This document shows, piece after piece, positions 8,519-29,725 of a stretch of 64,000 nt of DNA. Position 1 is the stretch's first letter. Each line of letters starts with the position of its first letter. The notes beneath the pieces are model-generated. The model had not been told where the DNA came from, did no database searches, and saw only the letters and a program-made list of their open reading frames with translations. A program made the position numbers and the translations under genes. This stretch comes from Kribbella sp. ALI-6-A (GTDB lineage: Bacteria > Actinomycetota > Actinomycetes > Propionibacteriales > Kribbellaceae), in contig NZ_MTQN01000011.1 of assembly GCF_001984195.1 (NCBI RefSeq), positions 62,001-126,000 of the forward strand, given 5' to 3'.

Positions 8519-9366
8519 TCGAGGTCGCCGGGATCGCGCTCTCCGACGATCTCCTCCGCCGCTGGGTGGACTGGCTCGCGCCGGACCGCCAGCCGTTCTA
8601 CGTGACGGCCCGGCAGGCGGCCGAGTGGGAGTTGCCGCTGTCCGACGAGGAACCGGATCCGCAGGTGCGCGACACCTACCACTCGTACGCCGTCGACGGG
8701 CGGCTGCGGAGTGCGTGGTTGCCGGAGAGCGCGTTCTCGGCGTACCCGCGGAAGGTCCGGGCGAGGCTGGTCCGGGCGCAGGTGGTGCACGAGCGGGGCG
8801 CCGTACCGGCGGTGCGGGCCTGGCGCGAGGTGCTCGGCGACGAGATCCGGGACCAGGCCGACGGGCACCGGTTCGTCTGGTGGAAGTCGTTGCTGCGCGA
8901 CCCGGAGGTGCTGTTGCCGCGGATCGTGAGCGGGGAGATCGGCGTGAGCCGGCACGCGAAGGTCGGCGCGGACGTGTGGCGTGGGGTCGAGCGGCTGCTC
9001 CCCCGGGCTCACGAACTGGCCGGGACGTTTCCGGAGGGCAGCGGGCCGAACTGCTTCGGCACGGTGATGGCCGCGGCCGGGATCGAGGGCGCCGAGTCGG
9101 AGTGGATGCAACGAGAGCCGTTCGACCGGTGGCTGGACGAGTCGACCACGCGCGGTGGGCGTGACGGCGTACCGGGGACTGTGCTGGTGTGGCGATCGGC
9201 TGATCGGGCGGTGCAGCACGCGGCCGTCACACTCGGAGCCGGCTGGGTGCTGCACAAGCCGTCGCAGTCGTGGATGACGCCGCGCAAGGTCCGGACGGCC
9301 GCGGAGGTGCTGCGGGCGACGAGGACCGCCGGCTGGAGACTCCAGCGGCACACGCTGCATCGGTAG
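8515..9366 (+). CDS. Uncharacterised protein, possible NlpC/P60-like cysteine hydrolase half
   Basis: A 283-residue protein with no signal peptide, translated from a GTG that overlaps the stop of the Lrp gene. I do not recognise a named family. The C-terminal half has NCFGTVMAAAG (Cys at about 181) and, about 63 residues later, QHAAVTLGAGWVLHKPSQSWMTP. That is the Cys-then-His order and spacing of NlpC/P60-type papain folds. The N-terminal half is rich in Trp and Arg and has no motif I can name. Cysteine-hydrolase activity is inference only. Confidence 0.55.
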   Translation: MIEVAGIALSDDLLRRWVDWLAPDRQPFYVTARQAAEWELPLSDEEPDPQVRDTYHSYAVDGRLRSAWLPESAFSAYPRKVRARLVRAQVVHERGAVPAVRAWREVLGDEIRDQADGHRFVWWKSLLRDPEVLLPRIVSGEIGVSRHAKVGADVWRGVERLLPRAHELAGTFPEGSGPNCFGTVMAAAGIEGAESEWMQREPFDRWLDESTTRGGRDGVPGTVLVWRSADRAVQHAAVTLGAGWVLHKPSQSWMTPRKVRTAAEVLRATRTAGWRLQRHTLHR

Positions 9367-9445
9367 GAGCCGCGCCCGGGCAACCACGAGCACCGGCTTC
9401 GCGCGACGGTTCGCCCTGGGATCCTGCACCCCCGCCGACCAGGGG

Positions 9446-9451
9446 TAGCGT
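9446..9451 (+). promoter_or_regulatory. -10-like element of a leaderless promoter
   Basis: TAGCGT ends 7 nt before the GTG start of the MazG-like gene. The same hexamer at nearly the same distance precedes the genes starting at 12280 and 59565. Confidence 0.45.
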
Positions 9452-9458
9452 CCCGCGC

Positions 9459-9770
9459 GTGGAGTTCTCGGAGATGGTGACGCGGGCGCGCGACGTCCGC
9501 CGGAAGTACGCAGCGATGGAGACCGACCGCTACGGCCGCGAGTGGAGCCGGGAGGAGCTGATGCTCGGCTTCCTCGGCGACGTCGGCGATCTCGCGAAGC
9601 TCGTCCAGGGCAAGGAGGGCGTGCGCCCCCGCGACGACCTGGACGAGGCGTTCGCGCACGAGCTGGCCGACTGCCTGTGGTCGGTGCTCGTGCTGGCCGA
9701 CGTCTACGACGTCGACCTGGAGACCGCGTTCAGTCGGACGATGGATCAGCTGGACGATCACCTGAGCTGA
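9459..9770 (+). CDS. MazG-like nucleotide pyrophosphohydrolase
   Basis: A 103-residue all-alpha NTP-pyrophosphatase-like protein. REELMLGFLGDVGDLAKLVQ and, one helix later, AFAHELADCLWSVLVLADVYDVDL match the four-helix MazG layout, in which acidic residues bind Mg. The first EExxE-type motif is partly replaced (Gly-Asp in place of Gly-Glu), so activity needs care. The start is GTG 9459, in front of which TAGCGT sits at a leaderless distance. The 3' end overlaps the convergent OsmC gene by 41 bp. Confidence 0.78.
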   Translation: MEFSEMVTRARDVRRKYAAMETDRYGREWSREELMLGFLGDVGDLAKLVQGKEGVRPRDDLDEAFAHELADCLWSVLVLADVYDVDLETAFSRTMDQLDDHLS

Positions 9771-10215
9771 CCGTCAGCTCGCCGTCGTTCAGGTCGAGGG
9801 CCACCGGTGTGCCCAGTTCGACCGTGCGGCTCACGGTGCACAGGCGGTCGTGGGACATCTTCACCGCCCGCGGCAACGCCTCCCGCGCCTTGTCGCCGTC
9901 CTCCCCCTCGGGGAAGGTGATGGTGAACTCGACCTTGAGGTTCTCCAGCCGGTTGCCCTGCTCGGTGTCGCGGATCTTGTCACCGCTGACCACCGCGCGG
10001 AACTCGGTCGGCTCCGCGCGCCGGCTGGTGACCACGTCGACGTCGATCGCCGAGCAGGCACCGATCGCGGCGAGCAGCAGCTCGACCGGGGTGAAGTCGG
10101 TGTCGTCCGGTCCGCCCGAACCGACCGGCAACGTGCCGCCGCGCCGGTTGTGCACCAGGTACTTGCTGTTCTGCGTGCGCTCGAAGTGGACCTGCCGCAG
10201 AGACTCGTCGCCCAT
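9730..10215 (-). CDS. OsmC/Ohr-family protein
   Basis: A 161-residue OsmC-fold protein. The N-terminal LRQVHFERTQNSKYLVHN strand pair leads to the central TPVELLLAAIGACSAIDVDVVTSRR helix that carries the single conserved Cys, followed by EFTITFP and a late CTVSRTVELGTPV strand. Many OsmC proteins reduce organic peroxides, but this subtype keeps only one clear catalytic Cys in GACSA and another in DRLCTVSR. ATG 10215 is chosen because homologs begin near this point; no strong ribosome site is visible. It lies 32 bp after the SDR gene on the same strand. Confidence 0.83.
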   Translation of the reverse strand: MGDESLRQVHFERTQNSKYLVHNRRGGTLPVGSGGPDDTDFTPVELLLAAIGACSAIDVDVVTSRRAEPTEFRAVVSGDKIRDTEQGNRLENLKVEFTITFPEGEDGDKAREALPRAVKMSHDRLCTVSRTVELGTPVALDLNDGELTVSSGDRPADPSSD

Positions 10216-26130: not shown

Positions 26131-27816
26131 ATGCGCGAGGCGAGGCTCGTCGGTCTGAGCCAGGACGGCACCAAGCTGGTCCTGGCCGTGGCCGAAACGG
26201 GTGAGGAGTTCGCCGTCCCGGTCGACGACCGGTTGCGTGCGGCCCTGCGCGGCGACCGTGCCCGACTCGGCCAGCTGGAGATTCAAATGGAGAGCGCGCT
26301 GCGCCCACGAGACATCCAGGCTCGTATCCGCGCCGGCGAAAGTCCCGAGGCGGTGGCCGCCGTCGCCCAGATGCCGATGGAACGGGTGATGGCCTTCGCC
26401 GGCCCGGTCCTGGCCGAGCGCGACCACGTGGCCAACCTCGCCCAGCGGGCTTCCGTCCGCCGTCGCGGGGGCGGCGACGCCCCCACCCGCAACCTCGGCG
26501 CCTGGGTGACCGAGCGGCTGCGGATCCGGGGCGTGGACCCCGGTGCCGCCGAGTGGGACGCCTGGCGGCGCGAAGACGGGCGGTGGGCGGTCCGGGTGTC
26601 GTACCCGGTCGCCGAGGACGACGAGAAGGTCGCCATGTTCGCCTACGACGCTCCCGGGCGGTACGCCGTACCGGACGACGACGAGGCGCGCTGGCTGGTC
26701 GGCGAGCAGGCCCAGGTGATGCCGCCGCAGCAGCCCGAACGCCGGCTGACCGCGGTCGCCGACATCGATCTGTCGCTGGCCCCCGACCACGGCGCCGACA
26801 GCTACGAGGCGGCCGGTTTCGAGGACACCGTCAACCTGAACCGTGCCCGGCAGTACGCCCGCGACAACAACCCGCGGGACTTCGGCCAGGACATCGACCG
26901 GGACTTCGGGCGCGACCCGCAGTCGCCGGTCAGGGACCGTCCGTTCCCGCGCGAGGGGGCCGGGCGGGACAACTCCGGCCGGGAGCTGCCGGGCCGCGAA
27001 CCGGCCGGGCGTGACTTCGCCCACGACTCGGTCCGCGAAAGCTTCACCGGCCGCGACGTCGACCGGGGTCCGCGCCGCGTGCACTCCGTGCCGTCCGCCG
27101 ACGAAGAGCCGACCCTGATCAACATCCCGACCGAGCCGCCGCCGACCCTGCGGCCGACCGTGCGCGCGGTCGAACGCCCGGCCCAGCCGCCGACGGAGTC
27201 CGCCGCCCTGGCTCCCCCGGAGGAACGCGCCGCCGCGCCCGAAAACCCGTTCACCGAACGCCGTACGCCGCCGCCCGCGCCTGAGCGTCAGACCGAGGCT
27301 CGGCAGACCGAGCCGGGTCCCTCCGAGCGCCCCGCCGACCTCCGTCAGCCCGACCGCCCGGCCGACCTCCGTCAGCCCGAGCGGCCGGCCGAGCCTCGTC
27401 AGCCCGAGCGGCCCGCCGAGCCTCGTGACACCGAGCGTCCAGCCGAAGCCCGTCAGGCGGCAGTGCGGCCCGAGCCCGCTCAGCCCGCGGGGCCCGCGAT
27501 CCCGAGGCCGTTCGATCCACGCCGCGGCGCCCAGGAGAACCGGCCCAGCCAACCGACCCTCCCGACCCCCAACCAGCCGGCTCGCGCTCCCCAGCCGGCC
27601 GCGGACGCACCGGCGCGCCCGGCAGCGGGCCCTCCGCCGACCAACGGCACCGCGATCGGCGCCGCCACATCAGCAGGCTCGCCTCAGCCCGGCGAGCACG
27701 CTGAAGCGCCCGCCGAACCCACCCCGGAGCCGAAGAAGAAACCGGCTCGCCGAGGCTCCAAGCGCGCCAGCGTCCCCAGCTGGGACGAGATCATGTTCGG
27801 CAAGAAAGCCGACTGA
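26131..27816 (+). CDS. sepH: Septation protein SepH
   Basis: A 561-residue cell-division protein. The N-terminal DUF3071 domain (about 1-200) begins REARLVGLSQDGTKLVLA and includes the helix-turn-helix-like LRPRDIQARIRAGESPEAVAAVAQMPMERVMAFAGPVLAERDHVA. In Streptomyces SepH binds and stabilises FtsZ. The long C-terminal part is disordered and Pro/Arg/Glu-rich, with five 9-residue repeats at 399-443, and ends KKKPARRGSKRASVPSWDEIMFGKK, the conserved tail. The start ATG has AGGAG upstream. A strong hairpin follows the stop. Confidence 0.93.
   Translation: MREARLVGLSQDGTKLVLAVAETGEEFAVPVDDRLRAALRGDRARLGQLEIQMESALRPRDIQARIRAGESPEAVAAVAQMPMERVMAFAGPVLAERDHVANLAQRASVRRRGGGDAPTRNLGAWVTERLRIRGVDPGAAEWDAWRREDGRWAVRVSYPVAEDDEKVAMFAYDAPGRYAVPDDDEARWLVGEQAQVMPPQQPERRLTAVADIDLSLAPDHGADSYEAAGFEDTVNLNRARQYARDNNPRDFGQDIDRDFGRDPQSPVRDRPFPREGAGRDNSGRELPGREPAGRDFAHDSVRESFTGRDVDRGPRRVHSVPSADEEPTLINIPTEPPPTLRPTVRAVERPAQPPTESAALAPPEERAAAPENPFTERRTPPPAPERQTEARQTEPGPSERPADLRQPDRPADLRQPERPAEPRQPERPAEPRDTERPAEARQAAVRPEPAQPAGPAIPRPFDPRRGAQENRPSQPTLPTPNQPARAPQPAADAPARPAAGPPPTNGTAIGAATSAGSPQPGEHAEAPAEPTPEPKKKPARRGSKRASVPSWDEIMFGKKAD
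27325..27459 (+). repeat. Five 27-bp repeats inside sepH
   Basis: Five in-frame units code ERPADLRQP, DRPADLRQP, ERPAEPRQP, ERPAEPRDT and ERPAEARQA. DNA identity between the middle copies is high, suggesting recent slippage or unequal exchange in the disordered linker. Confidence 0.85.
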
Positions 27817-27831
27817 AGCACAGGCTCACAC

Positions 27832-27871
27832 CAGCGCCCCGCCGTCCGCACCAAGGGACGGCGGGGCGCTG
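27832..27871 (+). terminator. Hairpin terminator of sepH
   Basis: CAGCGCCCCGCCGTCC (27832-27847) pairs perfectly over 16 bp with 27856-27871, leaving an 8-nt loop. It lies 16 bp after the sepH stop and has no T-run. Confidence 0.85.
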
Positions 27872-27929
27872 TGCTGCTGACCGGCCACGGACAGTCGTCT
27901 CAGATCGCGGTCGGTGTTTGAAGCCGGCC

Positions 27930-28014
27930 CGGAGGTCTGTCATGATCCTCCGCATGCGTATCTCGCTGTGTTGTCGCTGTTGTTGTCGCTGACGCGCGCC
28001 GTCTGAGGCGCGCG
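27930..28014 (+). promoter_or_regulatory. Candidate cysteine-responsive attenuator region
   Basis: Three pieces line up. CGGAGG (27930-27935), the leader's ribosome site, can pair with CCTCCG (27947-27952) and so hide the leader start. The UGU-rich leader frame runs 27942-27992. Directly after its stop comes a perfect 8-bp hairpin, CGCGCGCC / GGCGCGCG (27993-28000, 28007-28014) with a 6-nt loop. A stalled ribosome on the Cys codons would block or alter the hairpin. This mechanism is known for poly-Cys leaders in mycobacteria; here it is inferred. Confidence 0.6.
27942..27992 (+). CDS. Cysteine-rich leader peptide
   Basis: A 16-residue frame, MILRMRISLCCRCCCR, with five Cys in its last seven residues. 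GGAGG lies 6 nt before the first ATG; a second ATG four codons later has no ribosome site. All five Cys codons are TGT although this GC-rich genome uses TGC nearly everywhere, including the Cys codons of the next gene. Rare-codon Cys runs directly before a hairpin are the mark of a translation-sensing leader rather than a functional peptide. The gene it would control starts 86 bp after its stop. Confidence 0.7.
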   Translation: MILRMRISLCCRCCCR

Positions 28015-28078
28015 AGGCCCTGTCCATTCCCAGGCCCGCCCGCCGACACCAGCACTCACAGGATTCCGGATACTCCCG

Positions 28079-28492
28079 ATGAACCTCTCCGCACTCGCCG
28101 ACCTGTTCGCGTCGAACGGTCTGCGCCTGCTGCCCGGCTCGTACGCCGTCCCGGTCGACCTGCTCGTTCAGTTGCCCGACGCAACGATCGTCCGGTTCAC
28201 CGCGCGCGGCCGCACGCTGCGCCTGCGCCAGTACGCCGCCGGCGCGCTGACCACCGTCGTGATCCCGACCGAGTGCGGCTGCGGCGACCACCACCCGCAG
28301 ACCGGCCCGAACCGCGTCACGATCAGCGCGTATGCCGAACCGCTCGCCGAGCGCGTGATCGACGGCGAACTGCTGTTCGGCTGGACCCGCCACGAGGCCG
28401 GTCTGCTGCGCCTGGCCGACGCCGTACCGTACTTCTTCGAGCTGCTCGCCGCGCTCCCCCAGCCGGAACGCGCCCTGGTCGGCGTCGCCTGA
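28079..28492 (+). CDS. Uncharacterised protein downstream of the Cys-rich leader
   Basis: A 137-residue cytoplasmic protein I do not recognise. It begins with a helix (LSALADLFASNGLRLLPGSYAV) and has a beta-rich middle. At residues 65-72 it carries ECGCGDHH, two Cys and two His that could bind a metal or an Fe-S cluster. The end is helical and hydrophobic (AVPYFFELLAALP). The ribosome site is weak (GGA 8 nt upstream), which fits control by the leader. Its stop abuts the stop of the convergent esterase-family gene. A link to sulfur or metal metabolism is inference from the leader and the Cys/His motif. Confidence 0.7.
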   Translation: MNLSALADLFASNGLRLLPGSYAVPVDLLVQLPDATIVRFTARGRTLRLRQYAAGALTTVVIPTECGCGDHHPQTGPNRVTISAYAEPLAERVIDGELLFGWTRHEAGLLRLADAVPYFFELLAALPQPERALVGVA

Positions 28493-29725
28493 TCAGAGCG
28501 GCCGCGACGGACTGGTGGTCGCCAGGTACACCAGCCCGTCGTACTCCTGTGTCAGCAGCGTCGGCGCGAACTGGTACTTGTACGTCCAGCGCTGCACGAA
28601 CGCCCCGAAACTCCGGAACATCTGCGGCTCCTCCAACCAGCCCTTGATCTCCGCCGGCGCCTCGTCCACCGCGCGCAGATCGAGAAAGTGGTCGCCCGGG
28701 TTCGCAGCCGCCAGCAGCCCCTCCAGCGAACTGAACCCACCGCGCTCCAGCTTGTTCACCTCGACCGGCCCGCCCAGATCACCCGGCCATGGGCCCGGCC
28801 ACATCCGCCGGGCCCGGAACGCGCCCGACCCGCACAGCAACGCCACCGCGTAGTACGCCGACCCGTACCGCTCGCGCAGATACTGTCCCATCGGCCGCAG
28901 CTCGGGCGACTGCCGGCTCGCGGCCAGGTGCCCGTTGTGCGCCCACAGCACAGCCTTCAGGTCGTTGCCGTGCAGAAACGCGCTCACCGCGTCAGCCATC
29001 GCCCGGTCCCGGACGGCGAACGTCGTCGCTCCGGCGTCCTTGTGCTCCTTCGACGAGCACACCACGTCGGCCGCCCGGACGAGCTGCTCACCGGCCGCCA
29101 GGACCTCGTCCGGCGCCGAGTGCTTGTCCAGGAATCCGACCAGTGCCTCGGTCTCCCGCACCAACAAGCGCTTCGGGTCCGGCTTGGCCCCCGGCCCGGC
29201 GTCGACCTCGGCCGCGATGCCGCCGTCGAACAGCTCGAGCCGCTCCGGCGCGTTCTGCTCCAGATAGCCCCGGACGACGGCCAGCGCCGCCGAGCACTTC
29301 TGCGGATCGATGCCCACGAAGCCGACCTGCTCGTCGGCCGGCCGTCCGGCGTTGTACTTGCGCATCCACTGGACCATCGCGACGACCTCTTCGGTCCGCC
29401 AGACCCAGAAGCCGAGATCGCTCACCACCGTCGGCGCGTCACCAGGACCGCCCCGGACGTAGGCGTCCACCGCGATCGCCGCGGACTCGCTCGCCTCCAT
29501 CAGCAGCGTGCGGAACCCGAGCTCGGTGACCAGGAACTCCAGCAACCGGTGCTTGAGCTGGAAGAACTCCCGCGTGCCGTGCGTGGACTCGCCGAGCCCG
29601 ACCAGGCGTACGTCGGCCAGCACCTTCTTCAGCGGTTCCAGATCGCCGGTCGGCGTTCCCGCCTCGACTCCGGCCAGCGGCCACGCCGTCCGCTCCAGCC
29701 ACTGCCGCACCCGAGGCTCACTCAC
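28493..29725 (-). CDS. Erythromycin esterase-family protein
   Basis: A 410-residue protein of the erythromycin esterase/EreA-like superfamily. GLGESTHGTREFFQLKHRLLEFLVTELGF is the defining N-terminal block with the catalytic His and Glu, EASESAAIAVDAYV follows, and AVLWAHNGHLAAS carries the second His pair. EreA/B open macrolide rings; most actinobacterial members have no proven substrate. Start GTG 29725 is chosen. Although a resistance role is possible, no macrolide cluster is present here. Confidence 0.85.
   Translation of the reverse strand: MSEPRVRQWLERTAWPLAGVEAGTPTGDLEPLKKVLADVRLVGLGESTHGTREFFQLKHRLLEFLVTELGFRTLLMEASESAAIAVDAYVRGGPGDAPTVVSDLGFWVWRTEEVVAMVQWMRKYNAGRPADEQVGFVGIDPQKCSAALAVVRGYLEQNAPERLELFDGGIAAEVDAGPGAKPDPKRLLVRETEALVGFLDKHSAPDEVLAAGEQLVRAADVVCSSKEHKDAGATTFAVRDRAMADAVSAFLHGNDLKAVLWAHNGHLAASRQSPELRPMGQYLRERYGSAYYAVALLCGSGAFRARRMWPGPWPGDLGGPVEVNKLERGGFSSLEGLLAAANPGDHFLDLRAVDEAPAEIKGWLEEPQMFRSFGAFVQRWTYKYQFAPTLLTQEYDGLVYLATTSPSRPL

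Follow-up and report, generated by a model that had tools for sequence, protein, structure and literature searches.

We analysed a 64,000-nucleotide stretch of Kribbella DNA (the window), in which a short cysteine-rich frame lies between sepH (26131–27816) and a gene for a 137-residue protein, the target (Table 1). Downstream of the target, an erythromycin-esterase-like gene lies on the opposite strand. Given sepH on one side and an opposite-strand gene on the other, the target is probably transcribed alone.

A preliminary description of the sequence had drawn attention to a 16-residue frame preceded by GGAGG, with five Cys codons that are TGT in every case. These elements are present as described: GGAGG lies at 27931–27935, and the frame (MILRMRISLCCRCCCR) runs from ATG 27942 to a TGA stop at 27990–27992. 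The Cys pattern that we searched for occurs once in the 8.1-Mb genome and never in a reversed control. A looser pattern was found at 30 places in the same genome (reversed control, 29 + 13), only five of which fall within short frames by our criterion, the leader itself among them. One of these, L131, ends in four Cys yet forms the tail of a 504-codon open frame, and was rejected as another Cys leader; the three remaining places look, by eye, like chance frames. In this genome, the 5 kb around the DUF1416 (sseC-type) locus contain no short frame with closely spaced Cys pairs, and no NCBIfam model matched the leader peptide (padded) or three leaders from a distant family.

Table 1. Features of the leader region and the target gene, with positions in the window.
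Feature	Position	Strand	Basis or remark
Upstream block GGACAGTCGTCTCAGATCGCGGTCGGT, operator-like	27889..27915	+	conserved by eye across the genus
-35-like hexamer TTGAAG	27918..27923	+	17 nt from the -10-like hexamer
-10-like hexamer CATGAT	27941..27946	+	contains ATG 27942; conserved spacing
Poly-Cys leader ORF MRISLCCRCCCR	27954..27992	+	probably leaderless; transcript would start at the A of the ATG
CUGUG (Leu-Cys codons)	27966..27970	+	predicted pairing with CACAG 28057–28061, ribosome-binding region
P1 strand 1, GCUG and UGUUG inside the Cys run	27976..27985	+	predicted pairing with 28044–28053
Post-stop hairpin P2, CGCGCGCC/GGCGCGCG	27993..28014	+	exact sequence and predicted fold
Inner hairpin P3	28016..28040	+	predicted
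P1 strand 2, CGACACCAGC	28044..28053	+	mostly invariant in the 37-genome alignment; predicted fold
CACAGGA, candidate ribosome-binding site of the target	28057..28063	+	alignment and accessibility computation
Target gene, 137 aa, CxCxxH-type motif	28079..28492	+	orthologues; predicted structure

Conservation of the leader and its promoter spacing

The genus set comprised 37 Kribbella genomes (G000–G036), each with a strong orthologue of the target, and the upstream region was read in each. An in-frame leader with 4–7 Cys codons and a TGA stop is present in 37/37, the stop lying 77–100 nt upstream of the target. The leaders are 10–13 codons long and comprise 24 distinct peptides. A hexamer of the form [CA]AT[GC]AT (CATGAT, CATCAT or AATGAT) is placed exactly 7 nt before the equivalent of ATG 27954 in 36 of the 37 genomes, and a hexamer starting with TTG stands 17 or 18 nt before it, again in 36 of 37. 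At one locus, L055, 10 nt separate hexamer and ATG by eye. A consensus promoter scan reported no promoter at the leader region. Since ATG 27942 lies within the conserved -10-like hexamer, 7 nt before 27954, the leader mRNA is probably leaderless and starts at 27954.

The preliminary description had instead proposed that GGAGG drives initiation at 27942. We rejected this start because it is not conserved: the upstream ATG is absent in 5/37 genomes, only 7/37 have an SD-like 4-mer before that position, and both GGAGG and ATG 27942 fall within the probable promoter. It had also suggested that the leader's own ribosome site pairs with bases just inside the frame. CCTCC at 27947–27951 is indeed able to pair with GGAGG; the regulatory step built on this pairing is unsupported, as it is not conserved and again falls within the probable promoter.

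Upstream of these hexamers, in many relatives the block at 27889–27915 includes, by eye, an inverted repeat resembling GTCC/GGAC, and a similar block is visible in the second family. From its sequence, it looks like an operator for a putative factor. Searching the whole genome for its core pattern gave a single exact match, so a shared operator regulon was discarded; allowing 1–2 mismatches gave 59 other places, compared with 19 in a reversed control.

Beyond the genus, a leader that has 4 or 5 Cys codons and ends in TGA is found in 8/8 genomes of a second family of the same order (5 distinct peptides), and by eye the element follows the end of sepH in at least four of the eight, as it does in the genus. 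Leader starts were scored by a script that accepts only ATG, which shifted the starts of L058 and L059; in both, an in-frame GTG stands 7 nt after a -10-like hexamer, and by eye the true start may be there. A third family has leaders at both of its loci, MHHLCCRCR and MSHLCCRCR. In both third-family loci (L107 and L108), sepH was seen by eye a few kilobases or less from the gene, and L108 also has, judged by eye, a sulfurtransferase-like frame (9078–10058) nearby.

A sample of the class yielded hits in 35/394 genomes, and a single distant family accounts for 33 of these. We fetched 28 loci from that family, five of the 33 matched genomes lying outside this set. In 27 of the 28, CATAAT is followed after 6–7 nt by a GTG-started leader with Cys codons, and 25 of the 27 leaders have three or more Cys, with two side by side; the exceptions are L083, with only two Cys, and L080, which lacks an adjacent pair. 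The remaining locus, L089, lacks the CATAAT-GTG arrangement and has a Cys-rich ATG frame instead. Here the leader stop is roughly 160–490 nt upstream of the gene. We also noted by eye that in L076 and L078 the leader end CCCTCGC can pair with a downstream GCGAGGG, perhaps as part of a separate attenuator fold.

The leader is real and conserved far beyond chance expectation; the promoter spacing and the gene are conserved as well. Loss of the Cys codons in orthologous regions had been named beforehand as grounds for abandoning the idea; they are retained in 37/37 genus and 8/8 second-family genomes, which bears out the proposal of a conserved poly-Cys leader, followed by a spacer of varying length, in the style of the mycobacterial cysteine leaders.

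Predicted fold and access to the ribosome-binding site

A perfect 8-bp hairpin had been described immediately after the leader stop. It is there in the window (27993–28000/28007–28014), but it is perfect in only 8/37 genus genomes, though its exact 5' arm is kept in 36/37; in the second family, a hairpin of different sequence occupies the P2 position. Folding suggests that this hairpin is one arm of a larger structure in which the Cys codons pair upstream of the gene. RNAalifold, applied separately to the genus and second-family alignments, returned the same layout for both, a predicted common fold in which the Cys codons pair just upstream of the gene and enclose the post-stop hairpin and a second hairpin. 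Within P3, the fold of the window itself does not use exactly the pairs of the genus consensus. Pairing of the CUGUG-CACAG type is also predicted for L075, from the third family. The spacing of CACAGGA to the gene's ATG is 15 nt in the window and 6–17 nt across the genus.

Compared with shuffled sequences, the window RNA folds with z = -2.0 (6/200 shuffles were as good). In the genus alignment, 99.4% of cells are paired and 2 pairs are double-changed, as against 0.1 in shuffles (reached in 0/500), counting 20 of the 23 pairs and leaving out a small 3-pair helix at the leader start. The second-family alignment is 94.9% paired with 3 double-changed cells (reached in 6/500 shuffles), and two other covariation measures were unremarkable there, being matched by 36 and 479 of 500 shuffles. 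Pair counts favour the predicted layout over slid versions of it. Nevertheless, the covariation is thin, because most pairs are invariant and the structure was derived from the same sequences.

A covariance model built on the genus gave a single match in the own genome. Run on the individual loci, where it also lists some chance places, it recovered the two third-family leaders at E 0.0002 and E 0.04, placed 7/8 second-family leaders, mostly weakly (only L058 at E < 0.01), and found no leader in the four distant-family loci searched. In a 245-genome sample of the order, 38 genus genomes and one third-family genome gave one match each; 37 of those 38 had built the model, leaving G074 and the third-family genome as the new matches. 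Second-family genomes were not reached in this sample, where the filters were stricter. None of 4227 Rfam families matched the window at its gathering score.

The accessibility of the target's ribosome-binding site was computed with the ribosome sites fixed in every genome. The second family gave the clearest values: the site pairs with the leader at a probability of 0.75, versus 0.30 with shuffled leaders (0.77–0.99 in 7/8 genomes and 0.05 in 1/8), and placing a ribosome on the first Cys codon lifts the site's unpaired probability from 0.22 in free RNA to 0.41, with a rise in 7/8 genomes. In the genus, the mean pairing is 0.51 versus 0.40 for shuffled leaders (at or below 0.02 in 5/37), and the unpaired probability rises in 24/37 genomes with a ribosome on Cys. 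The window itself pairs site and leader at 0.71, a value equalled by 11/60 shuffled leaders, and the site is unpaired at 0.28 in free RNA versus 0.24 with a stalled ribosome. Hiding of the site is thus predicted there but not its release, since the site re-pairs inside the gene. A ribosome on the stop codon opens the site about as much as one on a Cys codon (0.38 vs 0.35 in the genus, 0.42 vs 0.41 in the second family); hence the fold alone cannot separate a stalled from a finished ribosome, and the model rests on dwell time.

Against shuffles, the leader-site duplexes are modest in the genus, with a mean z of -1.1, and the two from the third family reach -1.0 and -0.5. Genus leaders bind second-family sites at -27.9 kcal/mol, compared with -25.8 kcal/mol for their own sites, and swaps of leader and site between families indicated specificity for the second family only. 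The TGT codons had been described as rare. Rarity is not needed for the sensor, given that TGT makes up 172 and TGC 32 of the 204 genus Cys codons. UGU may be favoured through its pairing with the stretch before the gene, an idea only partly borne out: replacing all TGT by TGC weakens the leader-site duplex in 23/37 genus and 7/8 second-family genomes.

How the leader may control the target

In the model we infer, RNA polymerase would start at the A of ATG 27954, and the transcript would open with a 12-codon leaderless ORF that has the Cys run at its end. Pairing of the Cys codons with the stretch just ahead of the gene in the resting RNA (P1, together with CUGUG-CACAGGA) would close a junction with two hairpins and hide the ribosome-binding site. 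With charged Cys-tRNA plentiful, ribosomes would clear the leader fast, the fold would re-form and the gene would stay low; with charged Cys-tRNA scarce, a ribosome would linger in the Cys run and prevent that strand of the fold from pairing, so that the gene would be translated and go up. We consider it reasonably probable that the element is a cysteine-responsive attenuator of this kind, combining a leaderless poly-Cys ORF and a Cys-codon/ribosome-site fold in translation attenuation. Because the folding, accessibility and duplex results are mixed, we regard cysteine-responsive control of the target as likely and translation attenuation as the preferred route, with Rho-dependent control still live.

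A classical transcription attenuator was rejected, as a simple consensus scan of 27820–28600 found 0 terminator-like sites, that is, no hairpin-plus-U-run terminator. The same result suits Rho-dependent cysteine attenuation, in which the C-rich stretch at about 28016–28056 would load Rho after the leader has been cleared of ribosomes; loading would be blocked by a ribosome that lingers on the Cys codons or by the fold left behind it. By eye, the post-stop stretch is C-rich and conserved, and Rho has been suggested to act at the cys leaders of mycobacteria and P. acnes (PMC1262725). The distant family also points this way: its long gap between leader and gene fits transcription control better than site hiding, and that gap of roughly 160–490 nt, together with the failure of the genus model to match there, counts against a site-hiding fold. 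Rho, however, has no need of a codon run that is predicted, in two families, to pair next to or with the ribosome-binding site, and overall we judge this alternative unlikely, while keeping it in play.

Far less probable is an RNA element that acts through structure only, the Cys-rich frame being a by-product of UGU-rich pairing. The UGU codons do form the P1 pairing strands, and nucleotide conservation is strong downstream of the stop. Yet the promoter-set start is in frame with the Cys run and TGA in 37/37 genomes despite the range in leader length, some genomes have extra Cys codons, and in the distant family the RNA differs while a Cys-bearing frame persists at a similar promoter spacing. 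Least credible of all is a nascent Cys-rich peptide that is itself the sensor, for instance of thiol oxidation or zinc, and stalls the ribosome making it: the Cys residues do sit at the leader end, near the decoding site at termination, and the present data fit peptide and tRNA sensing alike, but 10–13 residues would remain inside the ribosome tunnel and the non-Cys residues vary among the 24 distinct genus peptides.

The target family and related leaders

Translation attenuation in response to cysteine, our preferred reading, would act on a protein outside the named families. The window protein and its relatives had no significant Pfam or NCBIfam match, in keeping with the preliminary description that the gene is not a known sulfur gene. 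Orthologues at 69–80% identity occur in 20 public records (19 named Kribbella, one Streptomyces), most of which are the same sequences as the genus genomes grouped here; second-family proteins are 31–39% identical to the window protein. The upstream sequence of the Streptomyces sp. SID13031 record (L015/L037) is identical to that of G036, a Kribbella-grouped genome, so the name is probably wrong. G018 carries, besides the intact gene, an incomplete additional copy spread over two frames some 9 kb away, L064 (G018:C1:4109385-4109679); by eye, the 330 nt upstream of this copy contain no Cys leader.

The structure model of the target has a mean pLDDT of 85, with high confidence over most of the protein, but is poor at residues 61–80, the site of the CGCGDHH motif. 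Genus proteins and most second-family ones retain a CxC-H motif, but distant-family proteins do not; it is therefore probably not the core of the function. Weak sequence matches were taken as chance: TraN (3/25 family members, best E 0.013), SelB-wing (1 of 25, E 0.057) and SufA (one second-family protein, E 0.2). A search for solved relatives by sequence gave a best E of 0.29, and Foldseek returned no convincing fold match (best E 0.78). The top VIA-align hit, actin capping protein (Z 5.9, rmsd 4.1, 80 residues), and those to KhtT (5.0), Rv3902c (4.5) and the secretion chaperone SycT (4.3) lie in the range that this tool labels as common arrangements. We likewise set aside a defence role (no PADLOC match for 2 proteins) and plasmid origin (no match in a plasmid collection at E 1e-5).

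A conserved cysteine sensor would tie this unnamed family to cysteine supply, a form of functional evidence beyond sequence search; if the switch is true, it would be a first clue to the role of an uncharacterised gene. More tentatively, and somewhat short of even in our estimation, the family may be an unrecognised, dedicated part of cysteine/thiol homeostasis in several actinobacterial families, with its own leaderless Cys-codon switch that would predate the family split and have been rebuilt between lineages, as a compact codon-run/ribosome-site fold in Kribbella and nearer relatives and as a longer leader with a long gap in the distant family.

Propionibacterium acnes belongs to the same order as Kribbella. 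Cys leader peptides have been described before cys operons in Mycobacterium spp. and P. acnes and before cbs in Bifidobacterium longum (PMC1262725). As in our element, the Cys run is near the stop and there is no intrinsic terminator; the genes there are sulfur genes, and that paper reports no conserved terminator hairpins for them, whereas a conserved fold is predicted for the Kribbella element. We offer a concrete fold where that survey left the mechanism open. The predicted placing of the sensing codons opposite the target's ribosome-binding region matches the layout of translation attenuation and of the base stem in the LEU element of leuA in Actinobacteria (PMC1262725); that element has Leu codons and a pseudoknot, where ours has Cys codons, a predicted two-hairpin junction and another gene downstream. 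Tandem Cys codons in a leader stem are shared with uORFC-8-2 before cysS in Rhodobacterales, which differs in being UGC-dominated, in its intrinsic terminator and in its target, cysteinyl-tRNA synthetase (PMC8632094).

The closest precedent is mycobacterial. Leaderless polycysteine sORFs were found by experiment to be cysteine-responsive attenuators in M. smegmatis (Canestrari et al., 2020), and leaderless small ORFs with Cys codons precede cysA2, Rv0485 and nirA, one example preceding a gene called hypothetical in that leaderless survey (PMC4633059). The Kribbella leader shares with them a short frame, Cys clustered at its end, conservation upstream of a gene and, probably, a leaderless start; it differs in its target, another unnamed family, and in its lineages. 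By analogy, the element is best read as a device of the mycobacterial kind whose conserved target is new; leaderless poly-Cys leaders would then occur beyond mycobacteria, before a target that stands alone. In the literature returned by our search, as far as its text was available, there was no report of this leader-gene pair, target family, lineages or predicted fold. Lastly, we noted that the leaderless metL leader before metNIQ in Streptomyces lividans, read as methionine-sensing in PMC8079986, ends in ARCMCRRMCAF, with three Cys, and may sense cysteine also.
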